Origin: a virus
Strand: one strand, 5' to 3'
Length of the DNA: 40,913 nucleotides
Virus record (IMG/VR): IMGVR_UViG_3300012683_000013
Location: 1-40,913 of that record
Below, piece after piece: positions 3-40,913 of the stretch (positions within the stretch are counted from its first letter, which is position 1; every line of letters begins with the position of its first letter). The notes under the pieces are model-generated. The model was not told where the DNA came from, did not search any database, and saw only the letters and a program-made list of their open reading frames with translations. The translations under genes and the position numbers were made by a program.

Positions 3-260
3 TGGAACGCCGCCCGGTACGCAGTACTGGACGCCGCCCGATCTGCTGCCTGGACTGCTGCCTGGGGCTCCGTCTGGGGTGCCGTATGGGACGCCGTCCG
101 GGGTGCCGTATGGGACGCCGTCCGGGAAGAATCTCGGGACAGCATTTGGTATGCGGTCCGGGCTGCCACAATCGCTCTCGCAACCCAGGACCTGATCAGT
201 GAAGAGGACTTCAACACCCTGTACGGCCCGTGGGCAAGCGTGATGGAGGCGGGGAAGTGA
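3..260 (+). CDS. Tetrapeptide-repeat paralog B, 3' part (5' part is 40795-40913)
   Basis: This is the C-terminal part of a gene that begins at 40795 and crosses the window ends. After collapsing the 10-base end overlap the protein is 122 residues. It has the N-terminal block shared with its two neighbours (TAADFGPNGEAVAALI), then a variable run with a four-residue period in which Trp or Arg recurs (WDAV, RGAV), then the shared end DLISEEDFNTLYGPW...SVMEAGK. Bases 78-101 and 102-125 are an exact 24-base tandem repeat within the run. The last codons contain GGAGG, and the TGA overlaps the GTG of the next paralog, so translation is probably coupled. No function is recognised. The period-four pattern suggests a helical rod or repeat protein; this is inference. 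Confidence 0.8.
   Translation, partial: WNAARYAVLDAARSAAWTAAWGSVWGAVWDAVRGAVWDAVREESRDSIWYAVRAATIALATQDLISEEDFNTLYGPWASVMEAGK
78..125 (+). repeat. Exact 24-bp tandem duplication in paralog B
   Basis: Two identical in-frame copies (78-101, 102-125) each encode G-A-V-W-D-A-V-R. A change of one copy would change the protein by eight residues without a frameshift. Confidence 0.95.
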
Positions 261-610
261 ACTACACGGCAGCGGACTTCGGTCCCAACGGTGAAGCGGT
301 AGCCGCACTGATTGAGAGGGCGCGGAACCTCACCTCAGATCAGGCTTTTCTCCTAGGGGCAGCGTGGGACGCCACCCGAGACGCTGACAAAACTACCGCC
401 TGGTACGCCGCCCGACATGCTTCCCGGGGTTCCGTCTGGGGTGCTTCCCGGGACGCCGTCCGGGACGCCGTCCGAGAAAACTCTTGGGACGGCATTTGGT
501 ATGCGGTCCGGGCTGCCACGATCGCTGTTGTGGCCGGGGACCTGATCAGTGAAGAGGACTTCAACACCCTGTACGGTCCGTGGGCAAGCGTGATGGAGGC
601 GGGGAAGTGA
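257..610 (+). CDS. Tetrapeptide-repeat paralog C (117 aa)
   Basis: Third member of the tandem family. The GTG at 257 overlaps the previous TGA (GTGA) and lies 4-5 bases behind GGAGGCGGGG. The first ~28 residues match paralogs A and B almost exactly. The middle (~30-90) is the variable run rich in Trp, Arg and Ala (AWDATR, AWYAAR, RDAVRDAVR). The end DLISEEDFNTLYGPWASVMEAGK is again nearly identical. No signal peptide, membrane segment or catalytic motif is visible. It ends with the same GGAGG...GTGA junction, which here starts the HTH gene. An internal ATG at 230 was not used because it would read back into paralog B. Function unknown. Confidence 0.85.
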   Translation: MNYTAADFGPNGEAVAALIERARNLTSDQAFLLGAAWDATRDADKTTAWYAARHASRGSVWGASRDAVRDAVRENSWDGIWYAVRAATIAVVAGDLISEEDFNTLYGPWASVMEAGK

Positions 611-843
611 ACGACACCTACGACTCCCGCCAGTTCTACCGGCGGATGGGCCTGGTCATCAAGGACGCCCGACTCCGGAGGGAATACAGCCAGTTGGACC
701 TGGCACGGTTCATGAAAGTCTCTCAGGGGTCGGTGCAGTTCTGGGAGGCCGGCCTGCGCCGGCCGTCTGCCGAGAGCATTGTCCGGATGTGCAAGGTCCT
801 CCGGGTCACCCCGGAACAGCTCCTGGGGATGGAGGAGCAATGA
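607..843 (+). CDS. Cro/CI-type helix-turn-helix regulator (78 aa)
   Basis: A small protein with an XRE/Cro-CI fold: RREYSQLDLARFMKVSQGSVQFWEAG forms the helix-turn-helix (about residues 27-52), followed by the typical LxVTPEQLLGM end. The GTG start overlaps the stop of paralog C and uses its GGAGG. Such proteins bind operator DNA as dimers. No integrase accompanies it, so I do not infer lysogeny. Its targets could include the promoter regions near 975, 1292, 29130 and 34590. It ends in an ATGA overlap with the next gene. Confidence 0.85.
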   Translation: MNDTYDSRQFYRRMGLVIKDARLRREYSQLDLARFMKVSQGSVQFWEAGLRRPSAESIVRMCKVLRVTPEQLLGMEEQ

Positions 844-3987: not shown

Positions 3988-4015
3988 GTTTACTTGGATC
4001 TACGAGAGGCAAACC

Positions 4016-4189
4016 GTGAAGGACTTCGCCCGACCCCTGGTGGTAGCAGTGGCCATTGTCGCTGTGGCCGTTCTGGCTACGCGCGGTAACGAGGCTCCGG
4101 CCGTCCCGCCTGCCACCGTACTGCCGATCCCCGCGACGCTACCGGCCCCGGTTCAGCACGAGTACGCCACGGGCGGGACCCACAGCTGA
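4016..4189 (+). CDS. Small membrane protein on the opposite strand (57 aa)
   Basis: The GTG lies behind GAGAGGCAAACC. It has a short basic start (VKDFARP), a strong membrane helix (LVVAVAIVAVAVLATRG) and a Pro/Ala-rich tail ending near EYATGGTHS. It is the only plus-strand gene in the 32-kb leftward block, has a promoter-like sequence and a hairpin upstream, and overlaps the 3' end of the glycosidase gene by 37 bases tail to tail. This looks like a moron insertion. Function unknown; it could affect lysis timing or superinfection, which is inference. Confidence 0.5.
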   Translation: MKDFARPLVVAVAIVAVAVLATRGNEAPAVPPATVLPIPATLPAPVQHEYATGGTHS

Positions 4190-5259
4190 CCGTCCCCGGC
4201 GGTACCAACTGCCGGGTTGTAGGTCAGCGGGGTGAGAACGGTGCCGGCGTTCGTCTCGTTGCGGGCGCCGGTCCACAGGTCGATTCCCTGGTAAGGGGAA
4301 CCGTCCACCATCGAGACCGTACGCGGCTGACCTCCGCAGGAAGTCGCTGTGATGTCGCGCCGGCCGTTGGCGGGGGCGGTGAACCCGACGTTGGCGGGGG
4401 CGGTCCAGGGGCCCATCATGGTGGGGGCGGTCATGTACCCGGTACCGGTGCCCGCGCAGTAGCCGCACAGAGGGTCGGAGAACGTCATCACCCAGGTACC
4501 CGTCACCGCATCCTGCCAGGCCCCGGGACCCTCAGCCACACCCGTCAGACCACCCAGAGCGTTGGAACCGGTGTTGTTCCCGTTGGCCCAATTGGAGTCG
4601 AGGTGCTCTTCAGCCAGCGTCCCTCCGTACGAACAGACGATGGCGCCCGCGCCCGCGGAATCCTTCAGAAGAGCGAAATCCCCGTTGTTCCCGTTGCACT
4701 GATGGAGCACTGGCTTGTGCGTGCTGCCGTGCGGAAGACCGGCGGAAGCTCCGCACGGTCCGGCCGGCCCGTTGCACCCCATGATCCAGTAGGCGTTGGT
4801 GGTGGCGGACGATCGCCCGTTGACCTCGTTGAACCACAGCACCCACACGCCGTCGTTGCGAACCGCCATGCGCGGGTTGAAACAGCCGTGGCCGTCGTTG
4901 GTACCGCACTCAGCGGAGAACGTGGAACCCGTGAGGGGATCGGTCTCGGTAGGCGGGAACAGGGCGGTAGGGGTCGACCAGGGGCCGTTGATGCTCGTTG
5001 CCGTCGACACCCCGAACCCGCACCACGGGGAGGCTACGTACCACTGGTACCCGCACCCGTACATGCTGCCGACCATGTAGTAGGTCCCGCCGGAGGAGTA
5101 CGTCATGCCGTCGTGTAGGTCCACGCCGGCAACGACGGTGGACGCTCGTACCGTGGCGGACGACCGGGGCGGAGTGTGACCGTCAGCCGGGATGACGACG
5201 GCCGCAACAAGCCCCAGCGCGAGCGCCAGGGCGGACAAGATCTTTCGTGCGCGGTTCAT
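4153..5259 (-). CDS. Secreted GH43-like five-bladed beta-propeller glycosidase (368 aa)
   Basis: A clear signal peptide (RARK, then the hydrophobic ILSALALALGLVAAVVIP) is followed by a propeller pattern: VDLHDGMTYSSGGTYYMVGS with candidate catalytic Asp50, repeated W/F-rich strands (NGPWSTPTALFP, GVWVLWFN), and VAEGPGAW with Glu243 in the EGP motif typical of GH43-type enzymes. At least ten cysteines suit an extracytoplasmic protein. GH43-type enzymes cleave arabinose- or xylose-containing glycans. A phage copy with a signal peptide, directly upstream of endolysin and holin, suggests attack on host wall or capsule polysaccharide at lysis. Substrate is unknown. It could instead be a lectin-like propeller. 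Confidence 0.65.
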   Translation of the reverse strand: MNRARKILSALALALGLVAAVVIPADGHTPPRSSATVRASTVVAGVDLHDGMTYSSGGTYYMVGSMYGCGYQWYVASPWCGFGVSTATSINGPWSTPTALFPPTETDPLTGSTFSAECGTNDGHGCFNPRMAVRNDGVWVLWFNEVNGRSSATTNAYWIMGCNGPAGPCGASAGLPHGSTHKPVLHQCNGNNGDFALLKDSAGAGAIVCSYGGTLAEEHLDSNWANGNNTGSNALGGLTGVAEGPGAWQDAVTGTWVMTFSDPLCGYCAGTGTGYMTAPTMMGPWTAPANVGFTAPANGRRDITATSCGGQPRTVSMVDGSPYQGIDLWTGARNETNAGTVLTPLTYNPAVGTAGDGQLWVPPVAYSC

Positions 5260-26586: not shown

Positions 26587-26723
26587 CGCCCGATCCCCTT
26601 CTCTCTGAAGTCCTTGCAATAGCACAGGTGGCACGCGGTCTTGCTGCCGTTCTTGTGCTCGGCTGTGTGCTTCACCCGCCAGTGCCCGCACTTGACGCAC
26701 TTCGTCTGGTCCCACAGTTTCAC
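26583..26723 (-). CDS. CGH-type zinc-finger protein (46 aa)
   Basis: CVKCGHWRVKH...ACHLCYCKDF. The spacing CxxCGHxxxxH...ACxxCYCxxF is the same as at the C-terminus of the nuclease at 28154. The GTG overlaps the stop of the last LIDPEV paralog and sits three bases behind GGAGGT. A stand-alone zinc module, maybe an adaptor for nucleic acid or protein. Confidence 0.7.
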   Translation of the reverse strand: MKLWDQTKCVKCGHWRVKHTAEHKNGSKTACHLCYCKDFREKGIGR

Positions 26724-26965
26724 GGGACCTCCGGATCGATCAGGTCGATCAGATGGTCTACTCGCCACATGTCCACCATGTTCCCCGCGCCCCACTCTCC
26801 GACCTTTGCCCTTTGCTTCTCTGCCAGTTCGTGTGCGTGCTGGTTCAGGATTCGGTCCACGTCGGCGTCATCTTCGGGTCGGGCGATCCATATACCTGTG
26901 CCGCGGTACCTGAGCGAAATCAACAGTTCCTCTTTCGCGCTCAGTTTCTCGTGCCACGAGTCCAC
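26720..26965 (-). CDS. LIDPEV-family tandem paralog f (81 aa)
   Basis: Last of six. Variable N-terminus (MDSWHEKLSAKEELLISLRY), then the family helix QHAHELAEKQRAK and the end HLIDLIDPEVP. The GTG lies inside the 3' end of paralog e because e has lost the usual stop. The last codons contain GGAGGT for the zinc-finger gene. Function unknown. Confidence 0.8.
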   Translation of the reverse strand: MDSWHEKLSAKEELLISLRYRGTGIWIARPEDDADVDRILNQHAHELAEKQRAKVGEWGAGNMVDMWRVDHLIDLIDPEVP

Positions 26966-27195
26966 TTCGCTCCCTCCGGATCGATCAGGTTGGCAGCATC
27001 GTCCGAGCCATCCCGGTAGGCACTTACCCCCGGGCCATAGAAGACACCGAACTTGCCGGGCATACCAGAACTCCGGATCTTCTCTGCCAGTTCGTGTGCG
27101 TAGGCGTCGATCAGGGCTGAGGCCCGTTCGCTTCGGTCGGGACTGTGGGTGCCACCGCTCATTACTTCGGCGTACAACTCGTCTCGTGCGCTCAC
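26941..27195 (-). CDS. LIDPEV-family tandem paralog e, with lost stop (84 aa)
   Basis: MSARDELYAEVMSGGTHS, DAYAHELAEKIRSSG and AANLIDPEGAK, then seven extra residues (WTRGTRN). In the other copies AAG is followed by TGA; here it is TGG, so the reading frame runs on and overlaps the next gene by 25 bases. The GTG of the next gene is kept. Starts at GTG overlapping the stop of d behind GGAGGTAGCGAA. Confidence 0.8.
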   Translation of the reverse strand: MSARDELYAEVMSGGTHSPDRSERASALIDAYAHELAEKIRSSGMPGKFGVFYGPGVSAYRDGSDDAANLIDPEGAKWTRGTRN

Positions 27196-27521
27196 TTCGC
27201 TACCTCCGGGTCGATCAGGAATGCCGCGCGGTTCATGCCCACGCTGTACTGGCCCGGGTCGTTCTGTAGGTCCCTGTCCGCCCGGATCTTCTCTGCCAAC
27301 TCGTGTGCGTGCTCGTTCAGTGCTGTTTCCAGGAACCCCCTAGCGTGTCCGGGGGTCATGGCTGCGGTACTGGTGATGATCCTAAGAAGTTCTCCCCTGT
27401 AGGAAATCACTTCGCTCGTTCCACTGGTGAGGGTGCACTCCGGGTGCGGGTGCACTTCCTCCCCGTTCTCCTCGTAGCACAAACCGCAAACCAGCAGCCG
27501 TGCGTAGGGTTGCTCACTCAC
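27192..27521 (-). CDS. LIDPEV-family tandem paralog d, with Cys/His N-terminus (109 aa)
   Basis: The longest member. An extra N-terminal part holds LLVCGLCYEENGEEVHPHPEC, which could bind zinc, then NEHAHELAEKIRAD and AAFLIDPEVAK. GTG overlaps the TGA of paralog c. The last codons again give GGAGGTAGCGAAGTGA for the next copy. Function unknown. Confidence 0.8.
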   Translation of the reverse strand: MSEQPYARLLVCGLCYEENGEEVHPHPECTLTSGTSEVISYRGELLRIITSTAAMTPGHARGFLETALNEHAHELAEKIRADRDLQNDPGQYSVGMNRAAFLIDPEVAK

Positions 27522-27748
27522 TTCTGTACCTCCGGGTCGATCAGGTCTGCAGCATCGTCCAGCCCCGCCATGTGGGTGAGAAACCCATGAGCGTAGGACC
27601 CGTCAGCCTTCACCGGGAGGGGCATCCCCCGGGTCTTCTCTGCTGCCCTATGAAGCGTGTTGTTATGGATCTCTATCAGAGCTTCGTTGCACAACTCCAG
27701 CCATTCGTCGCCGTCACGGGAGTTGATGAATTCTTCCCATGTGCTCAC
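27518..27748 (-). CDS. LIDPEV-family tandem paralog c (76 aa)
   Basis: MSTWEEFINSRDGDEWLELC, a divergent helix LHRAAEKTRGM in place of HELAEKIR, and AADLIDPEVQK. The end codes GGAGGTACAGAAGTGA. GTG start overlaps the stop of b. Function unknown. Confidence 0.8.
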   Translation of the reverse strand: MSTWEEFINSRDGDEWLELCNEALIEIHNNTLHRAAEKTRGMPLPVKADGSYAHGFLTHMAGLDDAADLIDPEVQK

Positions 27749-27969
27749 TTCGCTACCTCCGGATCGATCAGGTCGGCTGAACCGCTCATGTGCCGGTGTT
27801 CCGCGCTGTCGGGGTCGTACTTGCAGGCGTCTCGCATCCCCCGGATTTTCTCTGCCAGTCCGTGTGCGTAGGCGTCGATCTTTGCTGCTGCTTCGCGCCG
27901 TGCCTCGTCGTCATCGGCACTCGGCACGGACCCGAACAACAGCTCTACCAATTCGTCTCGCTCACTCAC
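27745..27969 (-). CDS. LIDPEV-family tandem paralog b (74 aa)
   Basis: VSERDELVELLFGSVPSADD, then DAYAHGLAEKIRGM and SADLIDPEVAK. GTG 27969 overlaps the TGA of a; upstream in-frame codons were rejected because they read into that gene. Function unknown. Confidence 0.8.
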   Translation of the reverse strand: MSERDELVELLFGSVPSADDDEARREAAAKIDAYAHGLAEKIRGMRDACKYDPDSAEHRHMSGSADLIDPEVAK

Positions 27970-28151
27970 TTCTGTACCTCCGGGTCGATCAGGTCTGCCA
28001 GCCGGTTCCGGCCGGAACGCCATCCGTTGGCGTAGTACCAGCCATAGTGGTCCAGCACGTCGTTGTAGCCCTGTTCGGTGGCGCGTCGCTGCTGTTCTGC
28101 CAACTCGTGCACGAACGCCCGGGATTCGGTGTCCAGGTCCGCGAAGGTCAT
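27966..28151 (-). CDS. LIDPEV-family tandem paralog a (61 aa)
   Basis: First of the array and the only one with ATG: MTFADLDTESRAFVHELAEQ, then a Trp/Tyr-rich middle (HYGWYYANGWRSG) and LADLIDPEVQK. It lies two bases after the stop of the nuclease gene. The end supplies GGAGGT for paralog b. The pattern (variable start, HELAEK helix, LIDPEV end) is familiar in actinophages without known function. Confidence 0.8.
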   Translation of the reverse strand: MTFADLDTESRAFVHELAEQQRRATEQGYNDVLDHYGWYYANGWRSGRNRLADLIDPEVQK

Positions 28152-28153
28152 CG

Positions 28154-28738
28154 TCACCACTCCTTGAACGTGTCGCAGTAGCAGGACTCGCAAGCCTTCA
28201 GGTCAGCCATGAAATGCTCATCGCGGCTGTGGCCGCAGGAACAGAGTTGCGGTGGAAGGTCCCGGGTCACGTGCACGTGGGGCCTTCGTGTCAGGTGGGG
28301 AAGCGGCAGCGGTGCCTGCAGGGTGTCTCCGGGGAGTGGTACGTCCACCACCGTGATGCCGGGGTTCTTGCGGAGCGGCCAGGGAATCCAGGGCTTGTGA
28401 CGACCCCGCGGGGTCCGGGTGGCCGTGATCTCCCAGAGATCCGCCTCCAAAGTCCGGCCGTCCCGCTTCTGCGCCACCAGGGCGAGGCATCCAGCCGCGT
28501 CCGCGATGGAGTAGAAGTGGTTCCACGCCTCGACACCTAGGCCGTTCTTCCCGCGCTTGCACTGGATCATGACCGGTACCGGGTGACGGGTGATGCGGTC
28601 CGCCATCAGGTCGAAAGCGACCAGGTCGGCTACGCCCTTGCTGCCCGCGGATCGGACGACGTAGTAGCCCACTTCCTCAAAACGTTCACGTGTGCGGTTC
28701 TCAAAGTCCGCACCTAGCCTGTACTGTGAACTTGCCAT
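28154..28738 (-). CDS. Holliday-junction-resolvase-like nuclease with C-terminal zinc finger (194 aa)
   Basis: Starts at ATG 28738 (MASSQYRLGADFENRTRERF). Residues ~5-75 fit an archaeal Hjc/VRR-type PD-(D/E)xK fold: GADFENR, VVRSAGSKGVADLVAFD and PVMIQCKRGK (catalytic D...QxK). The C-terminus adds CSCGHSRDEH...ACESCYCDTF, the same zinc module as the 46-aa gene at 26583. It probably resolves branched DNA during replication or packaging. The in-frame start upstream at 28780 lies in the terminator hairpin. Confidence 0.75.
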   Translation of the reverse strand: MASSQYRLGADFENRTRERFEEVGYYVVRSAGSKGVADLVAFDLMADRITRHPVPVMIQCKRGKNGLGVEAWNHFYSIADAAGCLALVAQKRDGRTLEADLWEITATRTPRGRHKPWIPWPLRKNPGITVVDVPLPGDTLQAPLPLPHLTRRPHVHVTRDLPPQLCSCGHSRDEHFMADLKACESCYCDTFKEW

Positions 28739-37539: not shown

Positions 37540-37741
37540 AGAGGAACAGGTACCGCTGCACACCCGGGAAAAGTTCGCGTTCGCGAGCATCGTCCAGGTA
37601 GCGACCTACACGGGGCCGCGGATGCTCCTCAGTCAGTGGGCGACCCCGGGCGACACAAACCCTCACGCTGAACATGCGTTGACCGTTACCCTCGCTGCCA
37701 TGTGGCGGGACACCGAGAGGCAGGAAGAGATCAATGACTGA
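37520..37741 (+). CDS. Hypothetical protein (73 aa)
   Basis: Starts MANLGPEEEQVPLHTREKFA behind ATGGAGGGACCGAG. Soluble and helical (AEHALTVTLAAMWRDTERQEE). Overlaps the membrane-protein gene by 20 bases and the exonuclease gene by 8. Function unknown. Confidence 0.7.
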   Translation: MANLGPEEEQVPLHTREKFAFASIVQVATYTGPRMLLSQWATPGDTNPHAEHALTVTLAAMWRDTERQEEIND

Positions 37742-39332
37742 ACGACGGAACCTCGGACGCGGGACATGCCGGGTATGCGGTGAGGAGTACAACCTGACCA
37801 GCAACCGGCGCATCAGGTCCCACGGGCCGCGGGACAACCGGTGCGCCGGCGGGAGTGACCACCCCGTGGATGTGGAGGTCATCAGTAGCGATGGGACCTC
37901 CACCCCGGTACTCGACAACCCCAACCCGCATCGCGCCCCGCTCACCCCAGAGGAGATGCGGCCGGTTGCTCCGACCGTTCAGGAGGCTCCGTCTGCCAAC
38001 CCTGACCCGGCCCCGTTCACCACCGCGGTTCCCGTGTCCGCGACCCCGACCATCCGCGGCGGGGAATCCGTTCGGACCGGCCCGGAAAAGAGTGACTTCG
38101 ACCAGTGGGGCCGGTACAAGATCCCGGACCCGGCAACGGGCAAGGTCTCCGGCCGGCAGCGCGTGACCACGTTCGTCAAGATGATCAGCGACCAGTGGGG
38201 GTTGTCCCAGTGGCAGCAGCGCGTCCTGCTGGTTGGTGCAGCCTACAACCCGGCCATCGCAGCGACCGCTGCAGGCAGGGACGCCAAGGCGGACAAGGCT
38301 TTCCTCGACGGCGTGGTGACCATCCTGAAGGATGCTGCAGGGTCCAAGGAAGCTGCAGCGTTCGGAACCCGGATGCACACGCACACCGAGCGCCTTGACC
38401 TGGGGATCATGACCGAACAGGAATTCGCTGCGCTGCCCGACTCGGAAGCGCGGGACCTGTTCGCCTACAAGGAAGCCGTAGAGGCTGCTGGCCTGGTGGT
38501 GGAGCGGGAGATGGTCGAGCGGACCACGATGGTTCGCTCCCTGGATGTCACGGGGACCATGGACCGGGTATTCAAGCTCCCCAACGGTGACTACGTCATC
38601 GGAGATGTGAAGACCGGCCAGGACCTCTCTTACGGCTGGCTGGACATCGGGATGCAGCTCGCCTGCTACGCCCAAGGCATCAACGAGAACGGAGTTTTTG
38701 ACTGGGCCTCCCGGCAGTGGATTCCCGGCCCCAAGGTGCGCACGGACTTTGCGATCGTGATGCACATGCCCGCAGGTAAGGGGACATGCACGCTGTACCG
38801 GGTGGACATCAACCAGGGTTGGGCGAACTGTGCTCTGGCCCGGTCCGTCCGCGACGCACGCAAGGTCCGCAACCACGCGGAAGTCCTGGACCTGAGTGCG
38901 GTTGCGATGCGGCCGGAAGTTTCACTCCCAGGTGACTACATTCAGGAGTCGGCCAACCGTGCGGACGAAAACGACCGCAAGGAAGCCCACAGGAACCGGT
39001 GCCCTGTGTGCGACTACTTCACAGAGACCTTCACGGACATGGACCATCACATGGCGGTCCAGCACCCTGGTATTTGGGAGGACACGTCCGGGGAAGATGA
39101 GCGCATGGTCATGCCCCTCGAAGTGCAGCCGCACAGCGAATCGTTCGGGTCGCAGGCCGTCCCGGAACCCGCCCCGGACCCCCGGGACAAGGCCCGTGCG
39201 GCCATGCACGCAGTGAAGGACAAGGGAGCGGCGGCCCAGGTCTACCGGTTCGCTGCGGAGGTCTGGCCGGCGGACACGGCGTTCCTGGCCGAACTGGTAG
39301 AGATCGGGAAGACTGCCATCATCCCGTTCTGA
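37734..39332 (+). CDS. Cas4/RecB-type exonuclease with two zinc fingers (532 aa)
   Basis: N-terminal CRVCGEEYNLTSNRRIRSHGP...NRC is a zinc finger (~12-37), then a Pro-rich linker. The PD-(D/E)xK core has GTRMHTHTE (His215), GTMDRVF (Asp277), GDVKTG (Asp291, Lys293) and MQLACYAQ (Gln308). C-terminal CPVCDYFTETFTDMDHHMAVQH is a C2H2 finger. This is the phage exonuclease that resects DNA ends for recombination. Start behind GAGAGGCAGGAAGAGATC. Confidence 0.9.
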   Translation: MTERRNLGRGTCRVCGEEYNLTSNRRIRSHGPRDNRCAGGSDHPVDVEVISSDGTSTPVLDNPNPHRAPLTPEEMRPVAPTVQEAPSANPDPAPFTTAVPVSATPTIRGGESVRTGPEKSDFDQWGRYKIPDPATGKVSGRQRVTTFVKMISDQWGLSQWQQRVLLVGAAYNPAIAATAAGRDAKADKAFLDGVVTILKDAAGSKEAAAFGTRMHTHTERLDLGIMTEQEFAALPDSEARDLFAYKEAVEAAGLVVEREMVERTTMVRSLDVTGTMDRVFKLPNGDYVIGDVKTGQDLSYGWLDIGMQLACYAQGINENGVFDWASRQWIPGPKVRTDFAIVMHMPAGKGTCTLYRVDINQGWANCALARSVRDARKVRNHAEVLDLSAVAMRPEVSLPGDYIQESANRADENDRKEAHRNRCPVCDYFTETFTDMDHHMAVQHPGIWEDTSGEDERMVMPLEVQPHSESFGSQAVPEPAPDPRDKARAAMHAVKDKGAAAQVYRFAAEVWPADTAFLAELVEIGKTAIIPF

Positions 39333-39783: not shown

Positions 39784-40320
39784 ATGACTTCCCCGTTCAG
39801 CACTGCCCCCGGAGACAACCCGTTCTCGGTCGCTGTCTCCCCCCCGTCTGTCTTCCCGAAGATGGTCCAGCTCAACGGTATTCTCCTCCTGATCCGTCCG
39901 GTCAAGTTGGAAGAGAACCTGATCAACACCCGGTTCATGAAACCCGGCCAGGCTCCCCAGATGTACGACCGTCTGACGGCCGATGTGGAGACCATTGACC
40001 ACATCCCGGCGGGTTTCGACACTAACGTGTTCCCGTCCATGTACATCAGCGGTACCCGGATCATCACCCAGGTCCGGGGAAACCTGGCCACTGGGCAGCC
40101 CATGCTCGGTCGCCTGTCGCTGTACAAGCCCAACGAGGCAGCGGGCGCCGGTAACCCGTGGGGCCTGTTGGAGCCGACCCCGGAGGATGTGCAGCTCGCG
40201 CTCCGGTACGTCAACGGCACTCACAAGCCGTCCCCGGTCGCGGCTCCGGTCGCGGCTCCGCAGTACACGGCTCCGATCGCTGCCCAGCCGCTCCACCAGG
40301 GAACCAACCCGTTCGCGTAG
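39784..40320 (+). CDS. Possible ssDNA-binding or recombination protein (178 aa)
   Basis: Starts MTSPFSTAPGDNPFSVAVSPP behind AAGGAAACCGAAACCAAA. The core (~25-135) is beta-rich (LNGILLLIRPVKLEENL...TRIITQVRGNL...LGRLSLYKP) and could be an OB-like fold. The C-terminal Pro/Ala-rich tail ends TNPFA and echoes an NPF motif near the start. Position after a RecB-type exonuclease favours an ssDNA-binding role, but the usual acidic tail is absent. Its own leader is heavily structured. Confidence 0.65.
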   Translation: MTSPFSTAPGDNPFSVAVSPPSVFPKMVQLNGILLLIRPVKLEENLINTRFMKPGQAPQMYDRLTADVETIDHIPAGFDTNVFPSMYISGTRIITQVRGNLATGQPMLGRLSLYKPNEAAGAGNPWGLLEPTPEDVQLALRYVNGTHKPSPVAAPVAAPQYTAPIAAQPLHQGTNPFA

Positions 40321-40358: not shown

Positions 40359-40402
40359 CGTTCCGGCTCACGAATACCACAGAATGTGATGGAGGCAGGG
40401 AA

Positions 40403-40798
40403 GTGAAGAACTACACGGCAGCGGACTTCGGTCCCAACGGTGAAGCGGTAGCAGCTCTGATCGAGGCTGCGCGGAACCTCACCTCAGATCAGGTGACAGA
40501 GTTGGGGGCAGTTTGGCGTGACATCGGGAAGAGTGCCCCGAATGCTGCCTGGGATGCAGCTTGGATGGCAACCCGGGGGACCGCCTGGGCTACCGCCAGG
40601 GGCGCCGTCCGGGGCTCCGTCCGGGACGCAGTCCGGGATGAAATCTGGTACGCATCCCAAGGTTCCGCCTGGAACTATCTCACCAGATACGCAGTACTGG
40701 ACGCCACAATCGCTCTCGCAACCCAGGACCTGATCAGCGAGGAGCACTTCAACACCCTGTACGGCCCGTGGTCGAGCGTGATGGAGGCAGGAAAGTGA
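40403..40798 (+). CDS. Tetrapeptide-repeat paralog A (131 aa)
   Basis: GTG 40403 behind GTGATGGAGGCAGGGAA, the same sequence that ends each paralog (coding SVMEAGK), although no paralog precedes it here. N-terminal block KNYTAADFGPNGEAVAALIE, variable run with AAWDAAWMATRGTAWATARGA and RGSVRDAVRDEIW, then DLISEEHFNTLYGPW. Ends with GTGA into paralog B. Function unknown. Confidence 0.85.
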   Translation: MKNYTAADFGPNGEAVAALIEAARNLTSDQVTELGAVWRDIGKSAPNAAWDAAWMATRGTAWATARGAVRGSVRDAVRDEIWYASQGSAWNYLTRYAVLDATIALATQDLISEEHFNTLYGPWSSVMEAGK

Positions 40799-40913
40799 AG
40801 AACTACACGGCAGCGGACTTCGGTCCCAACGGCGAAGCGGTAGCAGCTCTGATCGATAGGGCGAGGAACCTCACCTCGGATCAGGTGAAAAGTCTGGGTG
40901 AAGCTTGGAACGC
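40795..40913 (+). CDS. Tetrapeptide-repeat paralog B, 5' part (continues at 3-260)
   Basis: VKNYTAADFGPNGEAVAALI and on to SLGEAWNA at the window end. The last 10 bases equal bases 1-10; with one copy removed the frame runs on as AWNAARYAVLDAAR. GTG overlaps the TGA of A and uses its GGAGGCAGGAAA. See the entry at 3-260. Confidence 0.85.
   Translation, partial: MKNYTAADFGPNGEAVAALIDRARNLTSDQVKSLGEAWN

Follow-up and report, generated by a model that had tools for sequence, protein, structure and literature searches.

In mycobacteriophage Tweety, the protein gp54 has constant ends around a tetrapeptide repeat with a 12-bp unit; the number of repeats differs between Tweety gp54, Che8 gp57 and PMC gp51 (48, 26 and 15, respectively), and the repeat is absent from the relative Llij, which keeps the flanks (PMC2884959). 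Following mutations that change the number of repeats, gp54 is reported to counter the defences of the prophage Phrann (and of MichelleMyBell; reviews PMC9262239, PMC8549241): one phage adjusts its counter-defence by repeat number, through a mechanism that is obscure. A second point of reference is the protein family PHROG 8332, with named members in Propionibacterium phages E6, B3, B22, G4, Doucette, Anatole and PFR1 (P. freudenreichii phages) and in Clavibacter phage CN1A. Tandem copies are recurrent in Propionibacterium phages (PMC5831693). In the P. freudenreichii phages RecE/RecT follow immediately after the family gene, or after one intervening tandem copy or gene, and phage G4 carries a second, distant copy besides the one linked to RecE/RecT.

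The locus described here is a tandem set of three genes in an IMG/VR virus record of 40,913 bases, the whole of which is referred to as the window. The set runs across the window ends. The same 10-mer, CTTGGAACGC, occupies positions 1-10 and 40904-40913, an overlap with a chance expectation of ~3e-6, and when it is merged two half genes become one open frame (paralog C, 122 aa). A sister phage, L138, supports the join independently: its homologues of the two genes that flank the array, the upstream gene and the helix-turn-helix (HTH) gene downstream, are direct neighbours in that order. The break inside paralog C most likely stems from assembly or permutation of a circularly joined record and is no biological end; the record is classed as linear, though it is probably a complete, circularly joined genome. 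Searches for the integrase families PF00589 and PF00239 found no match, so the phage may be lytic or have an unrecognised enzyme.

Table 1. Features of the tandem array and its surroundings (window positions).
Feature	Position	Strand	Remarks
Paralog A	40403..40798	+	131 aa, GTG start, TGA stop; truncated PHROG 8332 member, E=1.5e-23, profile 128-241 of 248
Paralog C, 5' part, to window end	40795..40913	+	In frame with 11-260 after merging of the 10-base end overlap
Paralog C, 3' part	11..260	+	Window bases 1-10 duplicate 40904-40913; PHROG 8332 E=4.7e-14 (this part)
Paralog B	257..610	+	117 aa; truncated PHROG 8332 member, E=6.6e-24
Variable middle of A, period-4	40499..40696	+	66 residues
Core of the variable middle of C	52..143	+	Includes the 2.7-copy 24-bp array at 63-126
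Variable middle of B, period-4	350..508	+	53 residues
Shine-Dalgarno-like GGAGGCAGGGA ahead of A	40391..40401	+	Near-identical copies ahead of C, B and the HTH gene
Cro/CI-type HTH protein directly 3' of B	607..843	+	PF01381 E=2.2e-12; start overlaps stop of B
Gene directly upstream of the array	39784..40320	+	Conserved in both sister phages; no family match
Phage exonuclease, same early gene block	37734..39332	+	phrog_466 E=4.8e-72

The three overlapping genes stand in the order A, C, B (Table 1) and encode products of 131, 122 and 117 aa with common ends and a middle of period four. The start of each successive gene overlaps the preceding stop (GTGA); the ribosome-binding sequence GGAGGC(A/G)GG is found ahead of each array gene and of the HTH gene, and a scan for promoters and terminators found none between the array genes. 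Virion genes occupy the minus strand at ~5-25 kb; the array genes are read from the plus strand and belong to the early half of the genome, that of DNA metabolism. The array proteins have a net charge of -4 to -5, a maximum 19-residue hydropathy of 0.9-1.4 and no segment resembling a transmembrane (TM) or signal sequence. Minus-strand open frames across the repeat were set aside as a side effect of codon composition. Separately, the gene directly upstream of the array carries a tail rich in Pro and Ala whose length varies from one sister phage to the next (window 40234-40320; L138 12824-12950; L071 3750-3914), with the conserved end LHQGTNPFA.

Two features reported in a sequence-only reading of this DNA, namely near-identical starts and ends in the three paralogs and a period-four middle of differing length and order, were both borne out. 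All three copies start with [N]YTAADFGPNGEAVAALI and end with DLISEE[HD]FNTLYGPW; the middles measure 66, 57 and 53 residues in A, C and B, and the order of Trp and Arg differs between them. Identity at a lag of four residues is 0.24-0.36 in the middles vs 0.09-0.12 in residue shuffles (p 0.0002-0.0004). At the DNA level, TRF detected 12- and 24-bp arrays within the middles, the best being the 24-bp array in C, and an 18-nt block, TACGCAGTACTGGACGCC, is located late in the middle of A and early in that of C. The Tweety gp54-type arrangement of a tetrapeptide run in 12-nt units between constant ends is therefore present in the window copies, among which differences in repeat number are differences between paralogs only.

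Searches of Pfam with A, B and C gave nothing above cut-off, PADLOC gave no match to A and B, the PDB, searched by sequence and fold, held nothing usable, and phage records searched by DNA, and with the A protein at E 0.01, returned no match; relatives in the phage records were retrieved with the B protein at a looser threshold. The match to PHROG 8332 covers the C-terminal half only (profile ~128-241). Window copies and family members have in common the segment GPxGxxVAALIE, the tetrad run and the closing DLI..E.F..L.GPW, and the Propionibacterium members lie in the early region near RecE/RecT, as the window array lies near an exonuclease. They differ in that full-length members have ~100 additional N-terminal residues, forming an alpha/beta domain (profile ~1-127) that is absent from A, B and C, which begin at the GPNGEAV segment, and in the arrangement of the window copies as a triple tandem array. 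In the explanation that we favour, A, B and C derive from PHROG 8332 proteins that lost this domain. One further member was found in a Brevibacterium casei genome; members occur in only 4 of 395 sampled genomes of the class to which B. casei belongs, as is expected for a phage gene.

Some information on the missing domain and on the form of the repeat is provided by an AlphaFold2 model of a full-length member from a sister phage, built from 19 sequences (pLDDT 82, pTM 0.60). It comprises a confident alpha/beta N-domain, a single 53-residue helix over the repeat, and then two helices; a model of A alone, with an uncertain middle (pLDDT 54-73), carries no weight. Against a viral model library the N-domain matched RIIB 'protector from prophage-induced early lysis' and DUF7666 (prob 1.00, E ~1e-3), and full-length relatives show a weak match to PF24703 (E=0.018). 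The predicted fold of this domain in full-length members thus appears to resemble that of RIIB/DUF7666 phage proteins; the domain is absent from all three window copies. In more distant relatives (L077, L078, L079, L081 and L083) the same N-terminal domain occurs with other repeats before or after it, including SVWDSVRD tetrads and an 8-residue SAHVEARG run, which suggests that the domain has been joined to different repeat arrays.

Two sister contigs are collinear with the window at ~70-86% nucleotide identity, L138 (IMGVR 3300012351_000018) and L071 (IMGVR 3300046511_000380). In L138 the array site is empty and the exonuclease is kept. L071 has one full-length member at the array site (3995-4639, N-terminal domain present) and two truncated tandem copies further downstream, with nearly the same start, VKEYTAEDFGPNGEAV. 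Copy number across the three sister phages is thus 0 (L138), 1+2 (L071) and 3 (window), and the copies differ in where they lie and in whether they are truncated. The start that the truncated copies share is a sign of a single origin of the short form. Nevertheless, copies resemble one another more closely within a phage than across phages: dN of the end blocks is 0.04-0.15 within each phage vs 0.27-0.34 between phages, and the exact blocks common to A, C and B are mosaic, including the 18-nt block that sits at differing places in A and C. Exchange between copies best accounts for these observations; independent truncation or transfer is a less likely alternative. With dN/dS of ~0.3 within a phage, the constant ends evolve under purifying selection.

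Across the family the 12-nt unit reads GCN-NGG-NNY-GCN, and the tetrads of distinct repeat stretches conform to [A/V]-[W/R/G/L]-[D/G/A/N/V/Y]-[A/S]. Codon 2 is NGG in 87% of cases and codon 3 is NNY in 95%. Arg at residue 2 is nearly always CGG or AGG (CGC accounts for 0.4%, vs 30% in the same loci), and Gly is encoded in opposite ways at the two adjacent residues, as GGG in 31 of 33 cases at residue 2 and as GGC, GGT or GGA in 95 of 96 at residue 3 (GGG 1/96; Fisher p ~3e-26). Pairs of tetrads within a gene differ at the first base of codon 2 (2.1), the second base of codon 3 (3.2) and the first base of codon 3 (3.1) in 53%, 51% and 35% of comparisons, vs 16.5% at synonymous Ala sites. The excess over the Ala sites was seen in 37 v 4 genes for 2.1, 38 v 1 for 3.2 and 29 v 6 for 3.1; it is 2-3 times in magnitude, with Wilcoxon p values over 42 genes, related ones among them being non-independent, of 8e-8, 6e-8 and 7e-6, respectively. 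Since slippage alone copies all bases equally, this pattern indicates either diversifying selection or a base-specific mutation process.

Changes in repeat number are apparent between close relatives among the P. freudenreichii phages, in steps of 12 or 24 nt at 90-97% identity: B22 gp38 and Doucette gp39 are 97% identical and differ by exactly one tetrad (12 nt), and E6 gp39 and Doucette gp38 are exactly two tetrads (24 nt) apart. Such change is not always fast: E6, G4, B22, B3, Anatole and related prophages carry an allele of 15 tetrads with hardly any differences. The sequence-only reading had proposed rapid change by slippage and gene conversion under selection for variety, and had held that identical repeat patterns in distant relatives would refute it. 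The 12- and 24-nt steps, the within-phage likeness, the mosaic blocks and the excess at exposed residues argue for the processes proposed; the 15-tetrad allele, nearly unchanged in several Propionibacterium phages, goes part of the way towards such a refutation, as it shows that the repeat does not always change fast. That slippage, point mutation and exchange between copies diversify the repeat is well supported.

Whether selection for variety need be invoked is a separate matter. If the repeat is merely a GC-rich 12-nt tract under weak constraint to stay helical, then its variation could be a by-product of replication slippage. The presence of 12- and 24-bp arrays and the allele frozen across phages are consistent with this, as are the window copies, where variation at third bases is about equal to that at exposed residues. 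For that reason the window copies show no exposed-residue excess of their own; their repeats look older, given that third bases have also diverged, and the signal is stronger in the family than at the locus. However, slippage copies all 12 bases alike and so cannot produce a threefold excess of variation at 2.1 and 3.2 over synonymous sites, as seen in 37-38 of the 42 genes, or the opposite choice of Gly and Arg codons at adjacent residues; moreover, the ends are under purifying selection. We consider slippage without selection for variety unlikely.

On the basis of these data, our preferred reading, to which we give a probability of about 0.5, is that the array encodes early, intracellular, length-tuned helical proteins of counter-defence. 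Early location, dispensability in a sister phage and the diversifying pattern together make counter-defence the function that fits best, and the closest analogy is with Tweety gp54. The gp54 repeat follows the NGG rule (GGG 34, TGG 11, CAG 3), shares with PHROG 8332 the A-(NGG)-x-A grammar and the architecture of constant ends around a 12-nt run, and varies in number among close relatives, as does that of the P. freudenreichii phages (12/24 nt). It differs in being a single copy with a more uniform repeat, and in that its two flanks match PHROG 3416, which those of A, B and C do not: a search of PHROG 3416 with the window proteins gave no hit, and with the L071 copies weak hits over the repeat only. 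Because the end domains differ (PHROG 3416 vs 8332), the present family is an analogue of gp54 and not a member of its family. The sequence-only reading had offered surface, receptor or anti-defence proteins; the last stands as the best guess, by this analogy, and the first two are at odds with the early location and the lack of a TM-like segment.

In this reading the array is a set of three early, cytoplasmic and mostly helical proteins, in each of which the tetrad run joins conserved ends. The run may serve as both spacer and contact surface, with its length and its pattern of Trp, Arg and Gly determining how well it fits a target in the host. As is reported for Tweety gp54, that target would most likely be a defence protein encoded by the host or by a prophage. 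By carrying several different copies, one phage could cover several targets. Diversification proceeds by slippage in 12-nt steps, by point mutation at the exposed residues 2 and 3, and by exchange between copies. A mechanism of tuning between two end domains may not apply to the window copies, in which the N-domain is missing.

The vicinity of the exonuclease raises the possibility that the proteins are instead accessories of the recombination/replication module, for instance by helping the exonuclease or, like Gam, by inhibiting a recombination nuclease of the host, with the repeat as a spacer helix whose exact sequence is of little import. Close linkage to an exonuclease or to RecE/RecT in two unrelated phage groups is as expected for such a role, and so is a helix rich in Trp and Arg. 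Yet L138 retains its exonuclease and has no copy where the array would be; in G4, gp55 and RecET are apart, and CN1A gp10 is found among hypothetical genes ahead of a helicase. Neither the excess variation at exposed residues, unexpected of a plain spacer, nor the net negative charge sits well with an accessory function, which we regard as rather improbable. Still more doubtful is a role as virion-surface or receptor-binding proteins that vary to shift host range: constant ends around a variable middle, with exchange of sequence between copies, are a typical mark of surface variation, but the array stands apart from the virion genes in both strand and region, has the low hydropathy noted above, and matches no tail or fibre family. 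We rejected this role on the location outside the structural module. Targeted mutagenesis, as by a diversity-generating retroelement, can practically be discarded: variation is concentrated at 2.1, 3.1 and 3.2, and the NGG and NNY codons recall adenine-mutated AGG and AAY codons, but base 3.1 is mostly G and not random, the variation extends over long runs, with change of length, in three separate genes, and a search of the record for a reverse transcriptase (PF00078) found no match, on which ground the retroelement was rejected.

Returning to counter-defence, it is tempting to extend the reading beyond this locus. Tentatively, phages of many lineages might share one device, a helical run encoded by GCN-NGG-NNY-GCN that is flanked by end domains of differing kinds and works as a counter-defence adaptor open to adjustment: a single base toggles between Trp, Arg and Gly, neighbouring bases alter another exposed residue, and slippage by 12 nt alters the length. 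The window would then hold a stand-alone tandem set devoid of the N-domain. If the family works as gp54 does, the phenomenon reaches another protein family, one carried by phages that infect several actinobacterial hosts. The codon signature would then make it simple to search for such genes and to predict the residues that touch the target, and the truncated copies would make the repeat plus C-terminal part a sufficient module.

The window contains other repeated sequences. A second tandem array, on the minus strand at 26720-28193, comprises six small ORFs, each overlapping its neighbour; they share (Y/H)AHELAEKIR and end in LIDPEV(A/Q)K, have differing linkers and are 29-39% identical to the first. 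This, too, looks like a family of early genes that has been duplicated and keeps constant motifs. Finally, an exact 38-bp repeat, CGCCACGTCGTGTACTCTGAAAGAGAAGACAACGACGA, occurs at 986-1023 and 1303-1340, each time ahead of a small gene. The core of this repeat is also present twice in L071 (5026-5047 and 5383-5404) and is more conserved than its surroundings; the repeat is likely a promoter and leader element.
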